A DNA stretch of 64,000 nt from a virus. The position numbers and the translations under genes are program-made. The stretch spans positions 33,265 to 97,264 of the IMG/VR virus record IMGVR_UViG_3300028392_000045. One strand, 5' to 3'. The stretch's first letter is position 1. Each line of letters starts with the position of its first letter. The notes under the pieces were generated by a model. That model had not been told where the DNA came from. It worked only from the letters and a program-made list of their open reading frames with translations, and searched no databases. Of the stretch, positions 3,519-47,461 are shown in pieces.

Positions 3519-5117
3519 TTATTCCCAGACTATTTTTCCACATGAAGAAATGTCCCATGCCCCCAAACTACCCGACAATTCACGCTTAATTGACAAAGTT
3601 TTGCCATCACGGTACACGTTAGAACCATCACGTACAACACCATTTTTGAAGTCAATTGCGTTAGCTACAGAGTAATAGTAATCTGCCATGTCTTCTACAG
3701 CCATGAAGATGTTTTCACCTGATGCATTTTCGTCAGCGTTTTCAGACTTACCAAATTCCATAATGTCAATGTTGAATGACTCTTTTGGAAGGTAAGAACC
3801 TGGAGCTTTTTCTTTGTACAATTGATCATCATCCTTAGAAGGATCATACATGATTTGTACATCAATGCCGTTAGGGAACTTAATACGAGTGAATTGGAAA
3901 CCAAATTCTTTTTCGTATTGGTGTACTCCAGTTGGTTCTGGATTAGAACGAAGTGCAAAACCTGGCTCCAATGTTTGGAATACTGATGCGTTCTGTGCAA
4001 TCAAGTTGGACAAATAAGTAATAGCACCTGTACCACCACAAAGAATAGGCTTACGATTCATGAAACCACGACGACGGAATACAATCTGATGCAAGAAATC
4101 ATAAAGGTCAGCAAGAGTAAAGTTACCATTGTGTACCATCAATTGACCATCACGAACTAGCTGTCTCCAACCTGGAGCAGTTTTGATTGCACGCTTAGAA
4201 TCCATGTCGTTGTTAATCTGCAAACGACCAAATTCACAAGCCATTTCACGGTCTCTCTCAGTACGCTCCAACAAACGTTGTTCAGCTTTAGTGATAAAGA
4301 AGCCTTTCTCAATCTTTTCGTTAGTACCAGATTTAGTCAAAGAAGTCTGATATACATAACCACGACCAAATGCATCATGATACTGCTTACCTCCATTACC
4401 ATCTTGGTAAGTAGATTTGTTAGCACCACCTGTACGAGCAGCAGCCAATTCTTGCTTAACGAATTTGTCTGTAAAAGTTACTTCATTACCATACTGACCT
4501 ACAATAGAGCGCAATTTAGACATTGAGCTGTACTGATCAGTACCGTATTTGTCGTTTTCTTCGTTAGCTACACGAGTAGACACCCGAACAAAAATACGAC
4601 CTACTTCCAACAAGCTAGAAGGAATCCAAGTATTAGGATTGCTGTCTTGTAGTTCACAAGTATACTTCCAAGAGTGACCAGCACCAAGAGGTTGAGCTAC
4701 ATCAAGGATGTTAATCAGTGGAGCATCATCAGATTCAGTCTTGATCACACATGGTGTTTTCAACCAGTTGCGGTCAAGTGCAATTTCAAATGTTGCATTG
4801 TTTTTACCAACTTGAGATCCACCAGTTACCAACAATTCGGTAGAACGGAAATCAATATCAGCATCACCTACTACTGACCATTGGTAATCATTAGTACCAG
4901 CAGGTAGTTTGTGAAAGTTACCTTGAGCCATAGTCAAATAAGTCCAACGCTTATTTGTAAGACCAAGAGAACTTGTAGAGGAGAAAAGACGTGAAGTCAT
5001 TACTCCAAAATCAAAAGGTTTGTCGTCACGAAACAAAGCAGCATGTGAGGCACTGTCAAAAAAGTTACCACCGAAGCCTTTGTATTCACTGACGCGAAGT
5101 TGCGCTCTGCGTTCCAT
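3519..5117 (-). CDS. Major capsid protein
   Basis: 532 residues. The position after a scaffold-like gene and portal, the HK97-fold length, and a start of the crAss type (MERRAQLRVSEYKGFGGNFF) identify the major capsid protein. Base composition differs from the accessory genes: codons are richer in C and G at third positions, as expected for the most abundant virion protein. The gene is 18 bp after the scaffold stop. No frameshift or truncation. The following gap holds the homing endonuclease leader. Confidence 0.85.
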   Translation of the reverse strand: MERRAQLRVSEYKGFGGNFFDSASHAALFRDDKPFDFGVMTSRLFSSTSSLGLTNKRWTYLTMAQGNFHKLPAGTNDYQWSVVGDADIDFRSTELLVTGGSQVGKNNATFEIALDRNWLKTPCVIKTESDDAPLINILDVAQPLGAGHSWKYTCELQDSNPNTWIPSSLLEVGRIFVRVSTRVANEENDKYGTDQYSSMSKLRSIVGQYGNEVTFTDKFVKQELAAARTGGANKSTYQDGNGGKQYHDAFGRGYVYQTSLTKSGTNEKIEKGFFITKAEQRLLERTERDREMACEFGRLQINNDMDSKRAIKTAPGWRQLVRDGQLMVHNGNFTLADLYDFLHQIVFRRRGFMNRKPILCGGTGAITYLSNLIAQNASVFQTLEPGFALRSNPEPTGVHQYEKEFGFQFTRIKFPNGIDVQIMYDPSKDDDQLYKEKAPGSYLPKESFNIDIMEFGKSENADENASGENIFMAVEDMADYYYSVANAIDFKNGVVRDGSNVYRDGKTLSIKRELSGSLGAWDISSCGKIVWE

Positions 5118-13455: not shown

Positions 13456-13667
13456 CGTTCACAGTCTTTTCTTGATGTAAGAATACCTTCAAAATTACAA
13501 CCACAGAAAGTACATTTACCTGCTTCAAAACAATCTTTACAGGTCTTAACTCTATCTAGTACTTCTTTGGTATTAGTAATAGAAGCATCTCCAATAACTT
13601 TAAGATACATCCATTTTATATAGGCAAGAACAGACTCTTTAGTTAGATTACTTAATATCTTATACAT
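13443..13667 (-). CDS. Small Cys-rich, probably zinc-binding protein
   Basis: 74 residues. An N-terminal helix (about 1-30) is followed by a Cys cluster: C43, C46, C52, C55, C57 and C69 (TCKDCF, KCTFCGC, KDCERW). The spacing suggests one treble-clef or ribbon-like zinc site or more. It is the first gene after a minus-strand terminator-like hairpin. Its partner is unknown. Confidence 0.6.
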   Translation of the reverse strand: MYKILSNLTKESVLAYIKWMYLKVIGDASITNTKEVLDRVKTCKDCFEAGKCTFCGCNFEGILTSRKDCERWKK

Positions 13668-14062: not shown

Positions 14063-14707
14063 TTATTCTTTATCTTTCACAGTCAAAGGCTTCGCGTTTG
14101 ACAGGACTGCAACAATCTGTCTAGTAGGATTCAATTGCAAATATCCAAAATGTGGATTGTCAGGTGAAGTAGGTGGCTCAAAATCTAACCAATCTGTATT
14201 GGTATATCCATACTCTAAGTGAGGTGGATGATCTACAGAAGGTTTAATAGCCATAATAGAATCTTGAGTAACTTGAACTACATCTCCTACTTGGAAACCA
14301 CAATCATAAGTTGGTTTAGCTACTACAACTCCTTTTCTGGTAAAAGGCCAAGGAGATTCCATAGTTTGTCTTACACCAATACCATTCTGAGTAACTTCTT
14401 TCATAGAAATTTTAGGTTCTATGATTAAACCAGCTTTAGTCTTTTCAGGTACAATGTGGTACATTCTTACAATAACAGAAGACAAAGGTAGGATAGAACT
14501 ATACTGTTCATCTAGTGTAGTTAGATTATTATTATAGTCTTCAATCTTCGTCTCGTTCAGTTCCCAGTAACTCTTTCGGTTTAGATCTATTAAAGGTACT
14601 GGAGTCGCCGACCGGTGCTGTTCGGTTATGTAAAAGCTTCTTTGCTGATTTGGATCGGGAAAGTGATTCTCTGCGTAATCCCGAATTGATTCTGAACTTC
14701 CTTTCAT
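14063..14707 (-). CDS. Possible GroES-like co-chaperonin
   Basis: 214 residues from the start MKGSSESIRDY; an upstream in-frame Met at 14812 adds an unlikely hydrophobic leader overlapping the previous gene. The part from about residue 75 to 175 has the order of a GroES fold: SVIVRMYHIVPEKTKAGLII, then GVVVAKPTYDCGFQVGDVVQV. Phage GroES homologues (T4 gp31) help capsid folding, and this gene is in the virion arm. The match is by eye, so treat it as a hypothesis. The last codons contain a hairpin of the dispersed repeat family (14080-14110). The first 167 bp overlap the preceding gene in another frame. Confidence 0.45.
   Translation of the reverse strand: MKGSSESIRDYAENHFPDPNQQRSFYITEQHRSATPVPLIDLNRKSYWELNETKIEDYNNNLTTLDEQYSSILPLSSVIVRMYHIVPEKTKAGLIIEPKISMKEVTQNGIGVRQTMESPWPFTRKGVVVAKPTYDCGFQVGDVVQVTQDSIMAIKPSVDHPPHLEYGYTNTDWLDFEPPTSPDNPHFGYLQLNPTRQIVAVLSNAKPLTVKDKE
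14080..14110. repeat. Hairpin of the CTG/CAG-flanked repeat family
   Basis: GTCAAA and TTTGAC pair around a 9-nt loop GGCTTCGCG, with CAG and CTG outside. Near-identical stems and loops occur on the other strand at 21598 and, diverged, at 29398. This copy is inside the last codons of the GroES-like gene. Confidence 0.6.
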
Positions 14708-14939
14708 AAGCTTCTTGTAATTTTTCTTTTTGTTCTCCTGAACAAAGGAATGAAAATAAATAAAATGTCTTCTTTGTTGGCTTAAAGGTAAGTAAATTAG
14801 GTAACATAACATAAGAATATAATTCAGGATGTTTTAAGCCTTGTTCTAAGCTATCTTCTATACCTAAAATTATATTCTCTAGTTCCTTAATTGGAAACTG
14901 CTCCTGCTCTGCTATCTGCTGTACTAGCTTTTTTACCAT
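14541..14939 (-). CDS. Small protein of unknown function with basic Ser/Arg-rich tail
   Basis: 132 residues. The N-terminal 80 residues are helical (KKLVQQIAEQEQFPIKELEN), and the last 50 are basic and low in complexity (RRESLSRSKSAKKLL) before an acidic end. The start overlaps the previous gene by 53 bp and the end overlaps the GroES-like gene by 167 bp. The C-terminal tail may simply be what the other frame permits. No function recognised. Confidence 0.45.
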   Translation of the reverse strand: MVKKLVQQIAEQEQFPIKELENIILGIEDSLEQGLKHPELYSYVMLPNLLTFKPTKKTFYLFSFLCSGEQKEKLQEAYERKFRINSGLRRESLSRSKSAKKLLHNRTAPVGDSSTFNRSKPKELLGTERDED

Positions 14940-19709: not shown

Positions 19710-20189
19710 AATTGTAAATTTTTATTGTGATTTAACAATGTAAATATACTATTTATAATTACAACATCCAAATTTAATTACAAAAAAGATGTAAAGATCC
19801 TTGTATACATGTAATAAACGTTATTTTAAAGTAAAGATCCTTGTTTTGGAGACAATAACTCTTACGGTGGTGACAAGGATTTGTGTAAAAAACAGGCCGT
19901 CAAGCCCTTATTTTGCTGGATTTTGCCTTACAGATAAAAGATAAAAGATAATAAGAGAGAATTTATTTTCTTAAATTCTTTTGCTGCAAGAAATCTAGGT
20001 AGTAAGTCAGAAAAAGTAGAGTAGGAGAGGGTATTAAGATATACTATATCAGCTCTTGACTATTTCCCCTTTTTAACTTCTACCCAAATTATCATATTCC
20101 TGACTTTTTAGTAGGAAAACAAAAATAATTTATACCACCTGACATATTGTCATTAATATATCTGACATTATGTCATCAATTTATAAAAC
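19710..20189. promoter_or_regulatory. Intergenic region with iteron-like repeats, possible plasmid-type origin
   Basis: 480 bp without a gene, between the divergent RepL-like operon and the next rightward genes. It holds a 14-bp direct repeat GTAAAGATCCTTGT at 19791 and 19831 (exactly 40 bp apart), a partial inverted copy ACAAGGAT at 19873, a GATAAAA/GATAAAA/GATAATA tract near 19935, and the paired palindromes at 20140-20175. Repeats next to an initiator gene are the usual structure of an iteron origin; this is inference. Confidence 0.5.
20140..20175. promoter_or_regulatory. Two palindromic operator-like sites
   Basis: TGACATATTGTCA (20140-20152) and TGACATTATGTCA (20163-20175) are palindromes with 5-6-bp arms, 23 bp apart centre to centre. 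They end 14 bp before the start codon at 20190. Two dyads about two helical turns apart suggest a dimeric repressor, plausibly from the adjacent island. Confidence 0.55.
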
Positions 20190-20324
20190 ATGAAAACTGA
20201 AAAGAAAGTATATGTACGTAATCCACAAATGAATTATTTCGTATACCCAAAAACATTTCTAAAAGAACCAGAAAAGTTTCACGCATTGAAAGCTGACGAT
20301 ACTTATATTTCTGATGCAAATTAA
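20190..20324 (+). CDS. Small early protein under operator control
   Basis: 44 residues (MKTEKKVYVRNPQMNYFVYP at the start), basic and soluble. Its start lies immediately downstream of the paired palindromes, making it the first gene of the rightward operon from this region. No family recognised. Confidence 0.5.
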   Translation: MKTEKKVYVRNPQMNYFVYPKTFLKEPEKFHALKADDTYISDAN

Positions 20325-20330
20325 TTTACT

Positions 20331-20540
20331 ATGATACCTAGATTTCAAAAAGAATGGGAAACTTGGTTTGATTCTTTAAGTGAAACAGAGAAAAGAGCTA
20401 TGTTTGATAAGCATATTGCTCCTACTTTTGTAATTGAACCATCTAAAGAATCATTAGATAACATTTTTAATACTCAAATCTACAGATTAGTGCAAACTAT
20501 GTGGATATATGAACAAGAAGACAATGATACCAAAATTTAA
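20331..20540 (+). CDS. Small protein, paralogue of the next gene
   Basis: 69 residues, MIPRFQKEWETWFDSLSETE at the start; acidic and helical. The N terminus resembles the next gene (MIPKFKTKYEIANEWWMALT): same MIP-(R/K)-F opening, Trp-rich helix and acidic turn. The two are a tandem duplication. Function unknown. Confidence 0.55.
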   Translation: MIPRFQKEWETWFDSLSETEKRAMFDKHIAPTFVIEPSKESLDNIFNTQIYRLVQTMWIYEQEDNDTKI

Positions 20541-20772
20541 AACTAAGTACGAAATTGCCAATGAATGGTGGATGGCTCTAACAGATGAACAATGCGTAGA
20601 GGAATTTGAAAAAACACCTTTTGCAACTGATCCTCCAATGACTACTCCACCAAAAGAAAAAATCAAAAATATGGTAATGAAATTTCATCGACAGATGATT
20701 TATGCAAGACATATGGCTGATCTACAAGGAATAACATTCGAGGAAGCTATGAAAACTGCTTTTGGATCATAA
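20524..20772 (+). CDS. Small protein, paralogue of the preceding gene
   Basis: 82 residues from MIPKFKTKYE. A start 15 bp upstream is possible, but the chosen one aligns with the paralogue and overlaps its stop by 17 bp. It has a Pro/Thr-rich linker (TDPPMTTPPKEK) and a C-terminal helix with Met and His (FHRQMIYARHMADLQG). Function unknown. Confidence 0.55.
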   Translation: MIPKFKTKYEIANEWWMALTDEQCVEEFEKTPFATDPPMTTPPKEKIKNMVMKFHRQMIYARHMADLQGITFEEAMKTAFGS

Positions 20773-20845
20773 AATCTAAAGCAATTATATTAGCTAAAAA
20801 AGAAGTATTCTTCTGGTGATATTTTCAACTTTAAAACTCAAGAAG

Positions 20846-20977
20846 ATGGCGGAATGGACTGATTTTGATTTATTATTGCAAACCGAGGAACCAGAAATTA
20901 ACTTAACTGAATCTGAAGAAGAACAGTTGAATGAATATGAATGGCAACTCGATAACTTTTTGGATTATGAGTACTAG
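20846..20977 (+). CDS. Short very acidic protein
   Basis: 43 residues, rich in Glu and Asp (MAEWTDFDLLLQTEEPE, ESEEEQLNEYEWQ), with a TAG stop. It overlaps the next gene by 11 bp. Small acidic phage proteins sometimes mimic DNA or bind basic host factors, but there is no direct evidence here. Confidence 0.45.
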   Translation: MAEWTDFDLLLQTEEPEINLTESEEEQLNEYEWQLDNFLDYEY

Positions 20978-21311
20978 AACATGCCAAATTGTGTATATTC
21001 ATGGAACTAAGTCTATTACAGGTGAAGAAGTAATTAATGAGAAAATCATTATTGCAAAACTTTCAGCCGTACAGACATTAGGTAAAAAATACACAGAAAA
21101 ATCTCCTTTCAATCCTAACATGCAAGACCATTACATTCTACCAATGAATTGTACTGTGGAAGTAAAAGATGTAGCAAATCAAAAAGTAATCTGTAAAGAT
21201 ACTTTGAAAGGTGCTCAAGCATATGGGTATTGTTATCCAGATGATAAAAAGCTTTTACTTCAAAACATTAAGGAATGTTTAAAGGGGCAACAAAATTTGT
21301 TTTCTTATTAA
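20967..21311 (+). CDS. Early protein of unknown function
   Basis: 114 residues from MSTRTCQIVYIHG; the upstream in-frame start at 20931 lies inside the acidic gene and is less likely. Mixed alpha/beta with several Cys (CTVEVKD, KVICKDT, GYCYPDD). The C terminus is helical. It is followed directly by hairpins and a terminator (21316-21410). Confidence 0.5.
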   Translation: MSTRTCQIVYIHGTKSITGEEVINEKIIIAKLSAVQTLGKKYTEKSPFNPNMQDHYILPMNCTVEVKDVANQKVICKDTLKGAQAYGYCYPDDKKLLLQNIKECLKGQQNLFSY

Positions 21312-21315
21312 GGCA

Positions 21316-21410
21316 GTCGTAGGCCGAATTACGACAGTAAATACAATCCCAGTTAGTAATTTTATTAATTAGTGTTGTGCCAGTCTGCTTGAGGGTAGGC
21401 TGGCTTTTTA
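21316..21410 (+). terminator. Hairpin plus rho-independent terminator
   Basis: A perfect 6-bp hairpin GTCGTA/TACGAC (21316-21335), flanked by CAG like the dispersed repeat family, is followed by the stem GCCAG/CTGGC (21379-21404) and TTTTTAA. The second element is a conventional terminator for the preceding gene. Confidence 0.6.
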
Positions 21411-21467: not shown

Positions 21468-21599
21468 ATGAGAATATATCACAATTCAAATTATTTTAGT
21501 TTTGCAAACCATAAAAATATTGGATTTGGATTAGGAGCTTCTAATTTTTATGTAAGGCATACATTTGATAAAAAATCAATTAATATCATACTACTCTGA
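21468..21599 (+). CDS. Micro-gene family member
   Basis: 43 residues from MRIYHNSNYF; a longer start at 21414 adds a hydrophobic leader. It has the family profile: Met-Arg-Ile start, aromatic middle, and end KSINIILL. Its stop lies at the first hairpin of the repeat cluster. Function unknown. Confidence 0.5.
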   Translation: MRIYHNSNYFSFANHKNIGFGLGASNFYVRHTFDKKSINIILL

Positions 21600-21740
21600 C
21601 AAACGCGAAGCATTTGTCTGACAGTAATTTTATCAAAAATTACAGGAGTTTGGTGATTACACAAGGAAAGCCGAATTCTGAACCTATTTGTACTATCAGA
21701 TCTTTAGATCAGATTGCCAGTCAGGATTTCCAATCCTTAC
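21598..21740. repeat. Cluster of perfect hairpins
   Basis: Successive hairpins: GACAAA/TTTGTC around CGCGAAGCA (21598-21618), GTAATTTT/AAAATTAC with a 3-4-nt loop (21624-21643), GATC/GATC near 21698-21710, and AGGATT/AATCCT around TCC (21723-21737). They are separated by CTGACAG or CAG-type spacers. No convincing gene covers the cluster. It shares stems with 14080 and 29398. Confidence 0.65.
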
Positions 21741-21768
21741 AGACAGATTTACCTGAATATTTTCATGT

Positions 21769-25698: not shown

Positions 25699-25955
25699 TT
25701 CAATTAAACTCAAACACATTTTTTGCTCCATGTGATTTAGTAGACATGGATACCAATAAAAAAATAGGGGAAGATTATGTAGAATTTACACTTCCTACTA
25801 TATTTGAAGACAGTTTATGTCATGAAATTTTTTATCCTGAATTCAGACTAATTAAACGTATATGGAAATTCTCTTCATTGGGAATCAGTTATTCAATGAA
25901 TGCAAGACAAGCACAATTGAAGAAGCTGTCAGCTATTTCTCAAACCAGTCTATAA
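25695..25955 (+). CDS. Micro-gene family member with run-on C terminus
   Basis: 86 residues. The first 55 (MIQLNSNTFFAPCDL to FRLIKRI) match the family layout. No stop occurs at the usual junction, so the frame continues for 94 bp inside the start of the DNA polymerase gene, in another frame. The extra C terminus is probably neutral read-through. Confidence 0.45.
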   Translation: MIQLNSNTFFAPCDLVDMDTNKKIGEDYVEFTLPTIFEDSLCHEIFYPEFRLIKRIWKFSSLGISYSMNARQAQLKKLSAISQTSL

Positions 25956-28009
25956 TAGGTCTGGATATAGAAACCAGTAGAAAATACAAAAAAGGTACAT
26001 TTCCTGAAGAAGTATATAGACCAGGATTAGATCCATATACTTCAGTTGCCTGTCTGATGCAGCTAGGGACTTTAGAAAAGGTTTTTGTAATAGATACTCG
26101 TGTTATTGACATAAGTGCTTTAAAACCGATCCTAGAGTCTCCTAGCATAGTTAAAGTAGGTCATAATCTACAATTCGAATACAAACACATTCTACATAAT
26201 TTTTGTATTAAACTAGATAACATCTGGGATACCATGATATGTGAAAAAGTATTGTATAATGGTTTAGGTTTATCTAATAGTCTTGAAGCATTAGCTAATA
26301 GATATTTAGGTGTAGAATCTATAGAGACTATTAATCTATTTAATGAAGAAAAAGAAGATAAACACTCTGTCGAACCTTTAGATTCGACTGACAGTCTGGA
26401 TCTCCCATCCAGACAGTATATAGATAAATCAACTAGATTAGGTTTTATCAATATAGGAGATAGCCCATTCACCATAAAACAAATTATGTATGGTGCTGAT
26501 GATATTGTATATCCTCTTAAAATTAAGAAAATTCAAGAAAAAGGAAGAGAAGTTGGAGGAGTAATTTGGAATCCAAAAAATGCTTTCAAATTAGAAAATG
26601 CTACTGTATTAGTTTTAGCAGATATGTCACTTAGGGGTATTGGTTTTTCCAGAACTGTATGGTTAGATATTCTTAGTAAACAGTTACCTTTATTTGAGAA
26701 AAGAAAACAAATTCTTAATAAATGGGTAGAAGATAATGTACCTAAATTTTGTAGATCAGGTGATTTATTCTCTTCAATTCCTACTTGTGCTGTAGATTGG
26801 CAATCACCTACCCAAGTTGTAAAGCTTTTTAAGTATTTAGGAATATGTCCTAGAGAGGTATCTAAATCTACTAAAAAGTTAGAATACACAGTAGGTGCTA
26901 AAGAACTTCTAAAGACCATGAGAGCTGAATTACAAGAAAGCTATAGTTATAATAAGGATAAACCTATAGATAGCTTAGAAGAGCTTAAATTGGCTTATTT
27001 GCTATTTAAAAAATCACAAATGTCTTGTACTACTTTTGGTGCAAGCTGGTTAGATTATGTACATCCTATTACAGGAAGAGTACATTCTAACTTTAATCAG
27101 TATATGAACTCCTCTCGATTATCATCAAATAATCCAAATATACAAAATTTACCTCAAGGAGAATACAGAGATGCATTTATTCCTTCACCTTTAACTGACT
27201 TTATATCAGTAGATTATGCAAGTCAAGAGGTAAGAATTTTAGCTGATGTTTCTGCTAATCCAGTAATGGAAGATTTCTTTGTAAATGGTTCAAAAATATT
27301 TGGGGACGATATGCATTCATTTTCTGCTACTCAAATGATGAGAGCAAAGACAGGTGATGATACTATTGTAGTTTCTAAGAAATCACATCCCAAAGAAAGA
27401 AATATATCTAAGTCGTTAACCTTCTCATTAAGCTATGGAGGTTCAGCGCATTCAATCAAATTTAAGTTAGGATTAGAGTTAGAAGAAACTGAAACATTTA
27501 TTCAGTCTTTTTTTGATGGCTTTCCTGGACTTGAAGAAGATTTTACAAATAGAAAGAAATTCGCCATAGATAATGGCTATATAATATTAGACAAAGCAAC
27601 AGATAGACGCTACTTTTTTCCTCAGTATGAAAAAATGAAAAAAGCAGAAGAGTTAGCTAAATCTTACTACACAAGAGATATGTCTGCTGAAGAAAGAGCA
27701 GAAGTTAAATTAATACCAGAAGTAAAAGAAGCTTGGAAAACTTTTTTTACTCTAAAAGGAAAGCTAGAAAGAAGAGCATTAAATTATGGAATTCAAGGTC
27801 TTGCTGCCGGAATGACAAAATTAGCTTTAGTACTACTATATAAAGCAGGAATAGCACTTGTTTCTTGTGTACATGATGAAATATGTGCAGAAGGAAATGA
27901 AAAAGATGCAAAAACTATAGAAAGACTGATGATAGAGGCAGGAAAATACTTTTGTAAACGAGTTCCAATGGGCGCAGAAGCATCTGTAGGAGATAAATGG
28001 ATACATTGA
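25862..28009 (+). CDS. Family A DNA polymerase with 3'-5' exonuclease
   Basis: 715 residues. Exonuclease motifs: Asp35 and Glu37 in GLDIETS, VGHNLQFEYKH, and YGADDIVYP. Polymerase motif A is SVDYASQEVRILA (Asp451), motif B RNISKSLTFSLSYGG (Arg513), and motif C CVHDEICAE (His671-Asp672-Glu673). It replicates the phage genome. Between exonuclease motifs II and III (about residues 168-186) the gene contains a 52-bp double hairpin (26366-26417) read as VEPLDSTDSLDLPSR, probably an inserted element kept in frame. Its start follows a micro-gene junction, and its stop overlaps a TTG-started micro-gene. Confidence 0.93.
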   Translation: MEILFIGNQLFNECKTSTIEEAVSYFSNQSIIGLDIETSRKYKKGTFPEEVYRPGLDPYTSVACLMQLGTLEKVFVIDTRVIDISALKPILESPSIVKVGHNLQFEYKHILHNFCIKLDNIWDTMICEKVLYNGLGLSNSLEALANRYLGVESIETINLFNEEKEDKHSVEPLDSTDSLDLPSRQYIDKSTRLGFINIGDSPFTIKQIMYGADDIVYPLKIKKIQEKGREVGGVIWNPKNAFKLENATVLVLADMSLRGIGFSRTVWLDILSKQLPLFEKRKQILNKWVEDNVPKFCRSGDLFSSIPTCAVDWQSPTQVVKLFKYLGICPREVSKSTKKLEYTVGAKELLKTMRAELQESYSYNKDKPIDSLEELKLAYLLFKKSQMSCTTFGASWLDYVHPITGRVHSNFNQYMNSSRLSSNNPNIQNLPQGEYRDAFIPSPLTDFISVDYASQEVRILADVSANPVMEDFFVNGSKIFGDDMHSFSATQMMRAKTGDDTIVVSKKSHPKERNISKSLTFSLSYGGSAHSIKFKLGLELEETETFIQSFFDGFPGLEEDFTNRKKFAIDNGYIILDKATDRRYFFPQYEKMKKAEELAKSYYTRDMSAEERAEVKLIPEVKEAWKTFFTLKGKLERRALNYGIQGLAAGMTKLALVLLYKAGIALVSCVHDEICAEGNEKDAKTIERLMIEAGKYFCKRVPMGAEASVGDKWIH
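26366..26417. repeat. Double hairpin inside the DNA polymerase gene
   Basis: GTCGAA/TTCGAC with loop CCTTTAGA (26369-26388) is followed after TGACA by GTCTGGAT/ATCCAGAC with loop CTCCC (26394-26414). The first stem-loop recurs at 29373-29392 with the same 8-nt loop and a compensatory change (GTTGAA/TTCAAC). Length 52 bp, reading frame maintained. Confidence 0.75.
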
Positions 28010-28825: not shown

Positions 28826-29304
28826 AAAAATTTTTCTTTTTTATTCTAATGTTGCTTACTGTAACTACAAAAGCACAGTTTGGAGATGTATCTGTTATCC
28901 TTAAACAGAATTTCAAGGATTCAACTGTTACTATGGAGTGGCCTTTCAAGATTGATACTCAGAAATATGCGGTAACGTATACTTACATCCAAGATGAGAT
29001 CAAGAATGATACTGTCGCTTCTAAACGTATTTTAAAGTGGAATACTACACTTCCTTATCGTAAATTTAAATTATCTACTTATCGTTCAGTTATTCTTATG
29101 TATGTAGATATTTATCTTAAAGGAGCAAATTCTGAAGATCCAAATACCTACACATATGAAAAAACATTGTACAGTAAAACATATGATGTATATGCTGCTC
29201 GTAATGGGTATTTTGAAAAAGAAGTGGGTAAAGATGGTAGTAAATTGCTCTATTTTTATCCTGAATTTAATAGAGTTCCCTCTAAATTAAGAGGAGAAAA
29301 ATGA
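28822..29304 (+). CDS. Secreted or periplasmic beta-rich protein
   Basis: 160 residues with a clear signal peptide, MKKFFFFILMLLTVTTKAQ, cleaved after Ala-Gln in the Bacteroidota manner. The mature part is beta-rich (VSVILKQNFKDSTVTMEWPF, KYAVTYTYIQ) with a Lys-rich end. No cysteine or lipobox. It sits within a micro-gene chain, with ATGA overlap at its start. Export suggests action on the cell envelope, such as superinfection exclusion, but no homology is recognised. Confidence 0.6.
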   Translation: MKKFFFFILMLLTVTTKAQFGDVSVILKQNFKDSTVTMEWPFKIDTQKYAVTYTYIQDEIKNDTVASKRILKWNTTLPYRKFKLSTYRSVILMYVDIYLKGANSEDPNTYTYEKTLYSKTYDVYAARNGYFEKEVGKDGSKLLYFYPEFNRVPSKLRGEK

Positions 29305-29417
29305 TTTTGGTGTTTATTCTGTCGAACGTGAACTGTAGAAATTTTACATTTCTACTGTCTATCAAATCTACTGTTGAACCTTTAGATTCAACTGTCAGTC
29401 AAAAGCTACGCATTTGA
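29301..29417 (+). CDS. Short reading frame across the hairpin cluster
   Basis: 38 residues, MILVFILSNVNCR at the start. It begins by ATGA overlap with the secreted protein gene and reads through two hairpins, giving VEPLDSTVS, the same frame as in the DNA polymerase insert. It may be an invaded micro-gene. Low support for translation. Confidence 0.3.
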   Translation: MILVFILSNVNCRNFTFLLSIKSTVEPLDSTVSQKLRI

Positions 29418-29470
29418 CAGAAAAATTTAATAGAACCTTCGACTGGCAGTAAGTTTACTTAAACTTACAG
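29319..29470. repeat. Nested hairpin cluster
   Basis: Perfect stems: GTAGAAAT/ATTTCTAC (29335-29355), GTTGAA/TTCAAC with loop CCTTTAGA (29373-29392), GTCAAA/TTTGAC (29398-29418), GTAAGTTT/AAACTTAC (29449-29468), and an outer GTCGAA/TTCGAC pairing 29321 with 29443. CTGTC, ACTGTCAG and CAG motifs separate them. GAACGTGA occurs on both sides (29324 and 29471). The 29305-29533 gap holds little else. Confidence 0.7.
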
Positions 29471-29533
29471 AACGTGACTAGGTGAGGAGGTCTACAGTGA
29501 CGTGTGGGCTTCCTTTACTTTTAATTTCAGCAT

Positions 29534-33149: not shown

Positions 33150-34313
33150 ATGATTCACATTGTAACTATAAAAGAGAAGATACCTCTTTTTAAAGGTGAA
33201 GAAAAAGCTAATGCTATTGAAGTTGTATTACTGAATGAGTTTGGATTTGAGCTAGTAACTCAAATGAATAGATTTCAAGTAGGTGATAAAGCTTTACTAG
33301 TAGAGCCTGACTACAACTTGCCTAATATTCCTTTTTGGGCAGATTGGATTAGCCCTAATGGTGATCCTAAAAAATCTAAACTAGGAAGTAATAATCGTAT
33401 TAGAGCTATTAAGTTTAATCTTCATAAAGGAGATGGCATGCCTGTTTATTCTAATGGTATTTTATTGACTCAAGAAGATCTTACTACAGCTCCTATTCCT
33501 GATAAATTAAAGTTTACACTGAACAGTAAATGTACAGAAGAATTTCTTACTAATCTAGGTAAAGAGTATCTAGGAATCTATAAATATGATCCTGAAACCT
33601 CTAATAAAGGTAAAGTAGGAAAAGCTAGAACAACTAAAAAATTACCTGATGGTATGTACAGAACTGATGAAGAGAACTTTAATAAAATTACTCTTACTTA
33701 TCCTATACATCTGATTGGCTCCCTTAAAATTGACGGCAGTTCTTGCTCCATATGGAAAAAAAGTAAACAATCAGGTATCTGTTCTCGAAATCTACAAATT
33801 CCTTTAATGCTTACTAATGTAATAGGTAAGAAAAAAGATATTTGGAGCAAGATTAAATCTTTGTTTGGAGTAGATATTAGTATCTATAAAGAGGAAAAAA
33901 ATACTTCTGAATTTATTACTATAGGAGAGAAGTATTTACAAAGCCTTATAGAATCTGATTACGATAATATTACTTTAAGAGGTGAAATTTATGGTAAAAA
34001 TGGTTCTAAAGGTTCTGGAAATCCTAGAAATCCACATGGTAATAAACCAGGAGATATTTTATTTTATGGTGTAGATGAGTATACTAGTTCTACAAAAAAA
34101 GAACCATATAACAAATTTGTAGAAGTTACTGACAATCTAAGTCTTACTAGATGTCCAGAAATCTTTAATAAAGAATTTTCTACAAGAGAAGAATTAATAC
34201 AAGAGTGTAATCAATATTTTGCAGATAATTTAGTGGAAGGTATCGTAATCCGTACTCCCGATTCTTCTATTTCTGCAAAAATTATGAACTTGGAGTATGA
34301 TTCAAAAAAGTAA
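33150..34313 (+). CDS. RNA ligase-like nucleotidyltransferase (OB-fold N-terminal type)
   Basis: 387 residues. The nucleotidyl lysine is Lys193 in SLKIDGSS. Motif III-like LRGEIYG, motif IV VEGIVIRTP and motif V AKIMN are present. The N-terminal domain (RFQVGDKALLVEPD, NRIRAIKFNLHKG) matches the OB domain of the DraRnl/Rnl5 family more than that of DNA ligases. It may repair nicked RNA, for example tRNAs cut by host defences, or seal DNA. It lies in the replication cluster, so a DNA substrate is not excluded. Confidence 0.75.
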   Translation: MIHIVTIKEKIPLFKGEEKANAIEVVLLNEFGFELVTQMNRFQVGDKALLVEPDYNLPNIPFWADWISPNGDPKKSKLGSNNRIRAIKFNLHKGDGMPVYSNGILLTQEDLTTAPIPDKLKFTLNSKCTEEFLTNLGKEYLGIYKYDPETSNKGKVGKARTTKKLPDGMYRTDEENFNKITLTYPIHLIGSLKIDGSSCSIWKKSKQSGICSRNLQIPLMLTNVIGKKKDIWSKIKSLFGVDISIYKEEKNTSEFITIGEKYLQSLIESDYDNITLRGEIYGKNGSKGSGNPRNPHGNKPGDILFYGVDEYTSSTKKEPYNKFVEVTDNLSLTRCPEIFNKEFSTREELIQECNQYFADNLVEGIVIRTPDSSISAKIMNLEYDSKK

Positions 34314-47037: not shown

Positions 47038-47156
47038 GAATCAATTTTCTTCATGTAGACATTTCTAGTATTAATTTAATATTTCAAGATATTAAAATGC
47101 TAGATCATTTTACAGCAGTCTATCCTGGCTGTTCACAAATTATAAATTTAAACTGA
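47013..47156 (+). CDS. Micro-gene array member 8
   Basis: 47 residues: MRIKTILIGI start, end SQIINLN. The next gene starts within its stop (TGATG). Confidence 0.5.
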   Translation: MRIKTILIGINFLHVDISSINLIFQDIKMLDHFTAVYPGCSQIINLN

Positions 47157-47461
47157 TGAGAGAGATAAACATTCCCGAAAGCTTGAAAGAGCAAATTATT
47201 GAAATGCGTAACATGGCAGGTATTTCGATAGAGCCAGCTAAAACGACTCACGATCGTCTACATTCATTTCTTTCTGGTGAGCCTAACGATCAACTGCAAA
47301 AAGTAATGAATGTTTGTATGAAAGCTTATAAGCCTTATATGACAGTATCTCCATTAATGTTACAGTCCTATGGTGTGGCTATGTACTGCTTACCAGAATG
47401 TAATGATACAGAGCTACTAAAAATTGCTAAAGAGATTTATGAGACGTTAAGTCACATGTAA
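47156..47461 (+). CDS. Helical protein inserted in the array
   Basis: 101 residues, MREINIPESLKEQIIEMRNM at the start, all helical, Met-rich. Codon use is less A/T-rich than the flanking micro-genes, indicating a different origin or selection. TGATG-coupled to the preceding unit. No family recognised. Confidence 0.55.
   Translation: MREINIPESLKEQIIEMRNMAGISIEPAKTTHDRLHSFLSGEPNDQLQKVMNVCMKAYKPYMTVSPLMLQSYGVAMYCLPECNDTELLKIAKEIYETLSHM

Follow-up and report, generated by a model that had tools for sequence, protein, structure and literature searches.

Genome and locus

The virus record IMGVR_UViG_3300028392_000045 (G000) comprised 97,264 bp, and the window analyzed here, a single stretch of 64,000 nucleotides, corresponded to bases 33265-97264 of that record; positions refer to the window unless G000 is named. 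The window harbored a gene encoding a family A DNA polymerase with a 3'-5' exonuclease domain (25862..28009, plus strand, 715 aa), which was similar to the polymerases of crAss-like phages. Its closest relatives were the polymerases of IMGVR_UViG_3300017774_003070 (G001; best tblastn segment 67% identical), a 103,829-bp record that is syntenic with G000, and of a third record, G002 (44%). No integrase was found in the two records that were checked. ORFs at the two ends of the G000 record matched separate parts of one 3166-aa protein of G001, and G000 therefore appears to be a circularly permuted and almost complete genome.

The polymerase gene contained an in-frame hairpin dimer of 50 bp (26367..26416, plus strand; CTG-N18-CTG, A, CAG-N19-CAG) spanning residues S169-Q185. 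Unit 1 (26367..26390, minus strand, 24 nt) carried the loop TCTAAAGG when read as CAG...CAG and formed a 6-bp stem with an 8-nt loop, and unit 2 (26392..26416, plus strand, 25 nt) formed an 8-bp stem (GTCTGGAT/ATCCAGAC) with a 5-nt loop. The initial annotation had described two perfect stems of 6 and 8 bp at 26366-26417; both are present, and the true limits, from CTG to CAG, lie one base inward at each end. When the segment was folded as DNA, its stability was 4.5 sd above that of dinucleotide shuffles, and none of 200 shuffles equaled it. Two of the three sense frames contained stops, so the in-frame copy had little choice of frame, and the frame that it shares with another copy (see below) was partly forced.

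Alignments placed the segment after GHNLxFE and before YGADD, where the initial annotation had put it; these blocks would be exonuclease motifs II and III. In 23 aligned polymerases, including that of the window, the conserved blocks on either side were separated by a linker of 0 to 43 residues, and the hairpin segment was present only in the window polymerase. The segment was variable or absent in the relatives, as the initial annotation had proposed, and formed no conserved loop in distant polymerases. The G001 polymerase lacked 13 residues at the hairpin segment. An AlphaFold2 model (15 sequences) had a mean pLDDT of 86.6, whereas residues 155-184 were below 50. The variable linker and the low pLDDT place the copy in a disordered, length-variable loop. 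The earlier view that a small palindromic element is tolerated in this protein is thus well supported.

The net difference between the G000 and G001 polymerases was 39 nt instead of the 50 bp of the dimer, and a clean insertion could therefore not be reconstructed at the distance of G001. AGATAAA direct repeats flanking the copy were considered as a target duplication and rejected, because the implied loss of 22 codons would delete YIDKS residues that are common to the relatives. In Leptolyngbya phage Lbo-JY46 (PP438436.1 36997-39930), a LAGLIDADG endonuclease was annotated under a two-piece polymerase match.

Structure of the hairpin unit

The hairpins of G000 with stems of at least 5 bp and loops of 2-10 nt were classed by their flanking bases. 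The CAG...CAG class ranked first of 279 flank classes (15 hairpins vs. 0.84 expected), and it likewise ranked first in G001 (7 vs. 1.1 expected). With stems of at least 6 bp, it was clearly the strongest outlier over 27 sequences (11 vs. 0.38 expected). CAG-N18/19-CAG intervals were then examined with no selection on stems, using spacings of 16/17 and 20/21 as controls. All five inner pairs were formed in 11/101 such intervals of G000 vs. 0/119 at the control spacings, in 3/130 vs. 0/235 in G001, and in 0/24 vs. 0/14 in G002. Since this test did not select for stems, it indicates that the feet and the length of the unit are fixed and that the stem sequence is free. The unit is thus a hairpin of 24 or 25 nt in which the feet are constant (CAG-N18/19-CAG) and the stem varies freely with compensation.

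In G000 (97 kb), 14 units had four or five of five inner pairs, that at 34213 being a doubtful member. Twenty aligned units began with CAG in every case and ended with CAG in 18, and loop length varied from 2 to 9 nt. An A.A mismatch in the foot gives the unit its polarity. Alignments of one set of 12 units and one of 8 showed 95.8% of stem cells paired, and their covariation scores of 0.82 and 0.71, which none of 500 shuffles reached, are inflated because the units were partly picked for having stems; the unselected interval test is the fair one. With the same bias, no one-sided G-U change occurred in 120 stem cells. The dimer alignment placed the gap between 24- and 25-nt units within the stem.

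TCTAAAG and YTTCR loops were found in both phages, on different stems. The loop CCTTTAGA alone matched seven times in the window vs. 3.6 expected, a count reached by 5 of 100 shuffles, and it was rejected as a family signature. The search that the initial annotation had suggested, for the stem with this loop, was thus at chance level when made with the loop alone, but the foot-tagged hairpin and the 1-nt dimer were far above chance.

Dimer architecture and mosaic copies

Most units were joined in foot-to-foot pairs separated by exactly 1 nt, giving a dimer of 49-51 bp with the architecture CTG-hairpin-CTG-N-CAG-hairpin-CAG. By foot pattern alone, G000 contained four such dimers vs. 0.005 expected and G001 contained one vs. 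0.025. In all five, the order was tail-to-tail and the spacer exactly 1 nt long; this is probably the mobile form. The four other dimers match the polymerase copy in feet, size, and spacing. An ordinary variable linker with hairpins formed by chance would fit the relatives, whose linkers vary in length over the same range with no hairpins, and yet the probability of such an origin is practically negligible, being refuted by these family statistics and by the failure of any shuffle to fold equally well.

The cluster at 29.3 kb held two dimers in succession, 1 nt apart. The first (29371..29420, plus strand) was a hybrid whose unit 1 had the loop of the polymerase copy and whose unit 2 was of the GCTACGC loop type; in the second (29422..29470, plus strand), the first unit was decayed, as judged by eye, and the second was intact at 29447-29470, the 26-nt spacing corresponding to 1 + 24 + 1. 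A further unit with an 8-bp stem lay at 29333..29357 (minus strand). The repetition of the first polymerase hairpin in this cluster, already noticed in the initial annotation, was located at 29371-29394, where the CCTTTAGA loop recurs, and the reported compensatory stem change was one pair, C-G in the polymerase and T-A in the 29371 copy. The claim of a common reading frame held in a limited sense: the peptide TVEPLDSTVSQ corresponds to SVEPLDSTDSL of the polymerase, but it belongs only to a possible 38-codon ORF (29301..29417, plus strand) that runs through the 29371 dimer. Besides the CAG units, the cluster (29305-29530) also contained a long stem and a repeated GAACGTGA in its 3' part.

The polymerase and 29371 dimers had the TCTAAAGG loop of unit 1 in common and differed in unit 2, and are thus mosaic with respect to each other. 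In a decayed dimer at G000 4263-4312, the TCTAAAGG loop was in the opposite arm. Template switching during replication could, without any mobile element, create hairpins at their present sites and perfect them there, and such templated correction would leave near-perfect stems and paired changes, as were seen here. However, local formation of quasi-palindromes leaves unexplained why the CAG feet, the size of 24/25 nt, and the 1-nt dimer spacing are constant and why loops recur between unrelated sites and between the two phages, and it is considered very unlikely. The observation at the polymerase is real, and what the initial annotation had seen in part, as two copies, extends to a family.

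Sites of the copies

The majority of copies were intergenic or at gene ends. A single unit (21314..21337, plus strand) began 2 nt past the stop of ORF 20931-21311, and two dimers followed on the plus strand, one intergenic with a GCTTCGCG-type unit and an AT-rich unit (21596..21645) and one partly decayed and matching the polymerase copy in type (21693..21742, unit 2 at 21718-21742). The G000 dimer 13471-13521 lay in a 100-bp gap, and the syntenic junction in G001 was 3 bp. Three copies were located within coding sequence, namely in the polymerase, in ORF 14063-14812, and in a 2172-aa ORF at the contig start. In the minus-strand ORF 14063-14812, a single unit (14080..14104, plus strand) formed part of the coding C-terminus, and about ten residues of this C-terminal extension were missing in the G001 orthologue. 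The copy in the 2172-aa ORF encoded the peptide VAPLDATASQDLQSLPR, which resembles SVEPLDSTDSLDLPSRQ of the polymerase; the BLAST alignment of this ORF with G001, at low similarity, had no clear gap at the copy.

Other copies were tightly associated with gene junctions. One G001 dimer filled the whole space from a TAG stop to an ATG start (0/0 nt), a second G001 dimer copy was 6 and 1 nt from its flanking ORFs, and several G000 copies followed closely behind stop codons. Double hairpins acting as RNA to process, stabilize, or separate transcripts, with a few strays inside genes, would also explain copies exactly at gene junctions, and the whole 29.3-kb cluster folded as RNA with a z of -2.3. 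On the other hand, copies occur in frame within the polymerase and at the end of another protein, the syntenic junction in G001 is empty, and the stems carry none of the one-sided G-U changes, in units picked for their stems. Rfam yielded nothing over the gathering threshold from 20.5 to 30.5 kb, where two weak matches were far beneath it. A role at the RNA level is therefore regarded as unlikely, and it overlaps with a REP-like reading because transcription of REPs is common.

A giant RNA polymerase is present in crAss-like phages, and hairpin promoters of the N4 type for a giant virion RNA polymerase were also considered. The N4 virion RNA polymerase recognizes extruded DNA hairpins and tolerates any change of the non-conserved stem bases that leaves the hairpin intact (PMC4496689). 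However, the N4 hairpin described there has a 3-nt loop with conserved bases, whereas the loops here were 2-9 nt long and variable. The units also form opposed pairs, some of them inside genes or ending them, and the CAG class was not enriched in the scanned parts of 24 more distant polymerase relatives. Promoters of this type appear extremely unlikely.

Comparison with known repetitive elements

REPs are hairpins of 20-40 bp with a GTAG or CGTC tag, their dimers can be head-head or tail-tail, have spacers of 1-2 bp in certain families, and include heterodimers, and they interrupt genes, among them that of DNA polymerase I (PMC3733652). TnpA_REP binds the folded single strand and needs the GTAG tag, and a stem mismatch is also required on E. 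coli REPs (PMC8266576). The phage element resembles REP/REPIN in its conserved foot tag, its variable stem and loop, its opposed and hybrid dimers, and its mostly intergenic and partly intragenic location; dispersed short hairpins and five inverted dimers were found. In contrast, its tag is CAG on both feet, neither GTAG nor CGTC, its units are strictly 24/25 nt with 1-nt tail-to-tail spacing, it is phage-borne, and no associated Y1 transposase (RAYT) exceeded the cut-off in G000, G001, or G002. The 14 units are also few beside bacterial genomes, which carry hundreds of REP hairpins. Although the element works like REP/REPIN, its tag and the missing transposase set it outside the REP superfamilies described so far. 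In the open-licence literature, surveyed short of full texts, no description of REP/REPIN in a phage genome was found.

The Rickettsia palindromic elements, compared by description only, resemble the phage element in their tolerated in-frame insertion in protein genes, which was found here in the polymerase and in ORF 14063-14812, and differ from it in tag, size, and genome type, the carrier here being a crAss-like phage. Two of them in Rickettsia conorii, RPE-4 and RPE-6, belong to the CGTC REPs (PMC3733652). The initial annotation had compared the segment with double-hairpin elements of organelle genomes. This comparison stands as an analogy: by description, these elements also consist of two adjacent hairpins and are dispersed, sometimes within genes, but they belong to organelle DNA and not to a phage record. 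Such organelle elements are known, for example, from Allomyces and Volvox. The REP/REPIN and Rickettsia elements fit better, because the phage units are foot-tagged and arranged tail-to-tail with 1-nt spacing. Non-autonomous elements derived from IS200/IS605 have a similar single-strand hairpin logic, and G000 contained a TnpB of that family; no CAG-footed unit was seen by eye in the sequence surrounding tnpB, and no TnpA exceeded the cut-off.

Possible routes of mobilization

Mobility, which the initial annotation had suggested, is well supported by the dispersal of the copies, the mosaicism of the dimers, and a syntenic junction that is empty in G001; neither a mobilizing enzyme in the records nor a clean target duplication at the hairpin copies was identified. 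On balance, the polymerase copy appears to be one of a family of non-autonomous, REP/REPIN-like mobile hairpin dimers that are tolerated in disordered linkers. By analogy with REPs, single-strand mobilization by a Y1 enzyme in trans is probably involved. The dimer would move in folded, single-stranded form, at replication forks for instance, and its feet could be cut and joined by a Y1-type HUH enzyme supplied by the host or by another element. Insertions would survive at intergenic junctions, or where an open frame meets a dispensable protein linker, as in the polymerase. The stems are probably kept perfect by templated correction at the hairpin, by selection for foldability, or by both.

No Y1 transposase (PF01797) exceeded the cut-off in any of the three records. 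A 101-aa ORF (47156-47461) had a sub-threshold Y1_Tnp match (14-16 bits vs. a cut-off of 23); no HxH motif was seen by eye, and its low-confidence model was all-helix (pLDDT 69). Outside the window, G000 encoded a 393-aa TnpB (guided_TnpB, OrfB_IS605) at G000 19818-20999 on the minus strand (L230:1408-2589), with an intact-looking frame and a guided_TnpB score of 157 bits vs. a cut-off of 100. Its presence indicates that IS200/IS605 material has reached the G000 genome. TnpB relatives were present in 39 phage records, no match was obtained in G001, and Rfam gave no match for an omega-RNA.

Tentatively, the copies may instead form a family of miniature hairpin dimers that is confined to viruses and passes within and among related phages with no part played by bacterial REP/RAYT systems, a possible reading that we doubt. 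Movement would then result from phage replication, with template switching at extruded hairpins, or from an unrecognized phage nuclease that reads the CAG feet; recognition would rest on the feet, length, and spacing, with no constraint on the stem sequence.

Bacteria and organelles are known to carry miniature hairpin parasites, for which phage genomes are usually considered too compact. A family in a phage, with constant feet and unconstrained stems and able to occupy a replicative polymerase, offers a small system for studying how hairpin elements move, and raises the question of whether phages shuttle REP-like elements among hosts.

Distribution beyond the two phages

The hairpin family was found only in G000 and G001, by scans that need exact feet, would miss diverged families, and may not include close records. 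In G001, the family occupied sites different from those in G000. These two carriers alone, with polymerases 67% identical, do not resolve the history of individual copies. Across the scanned contig parts of 25 polymerase relatives, the CAG class was enriched in G001 alone. Blastn against phages gave weak partial matches only, in 16 records. Exact loop searches of viral contigs had no matches; loop matches in five GC-rich viral contigs had no paired stems and were dismissed by eye as chance. A further scan of viral contigs returned at least 119 stretches, and among the 80 loci listed none had all four stem pairs and three had three pairs. The dimer pattern occurred in 24 stretches of viral contigs, where the stems of the element were present solely in that of G001, and in 21 stretches of genome contigs, none with these stems. 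In a set of 395 Bacteroidota genomes centered on G006, which was picked for having a pattern match, there were two matches (G006 and G091), neither with stems. Repeated palindromes with a ACTGNCAGT core were present in Prevotella/Prevotellaceae MAGs (L059, L061, L064, L072, L073, L076, and L077); these have CAG...CTG feet and represent a repeat of a different kind from the phage element.
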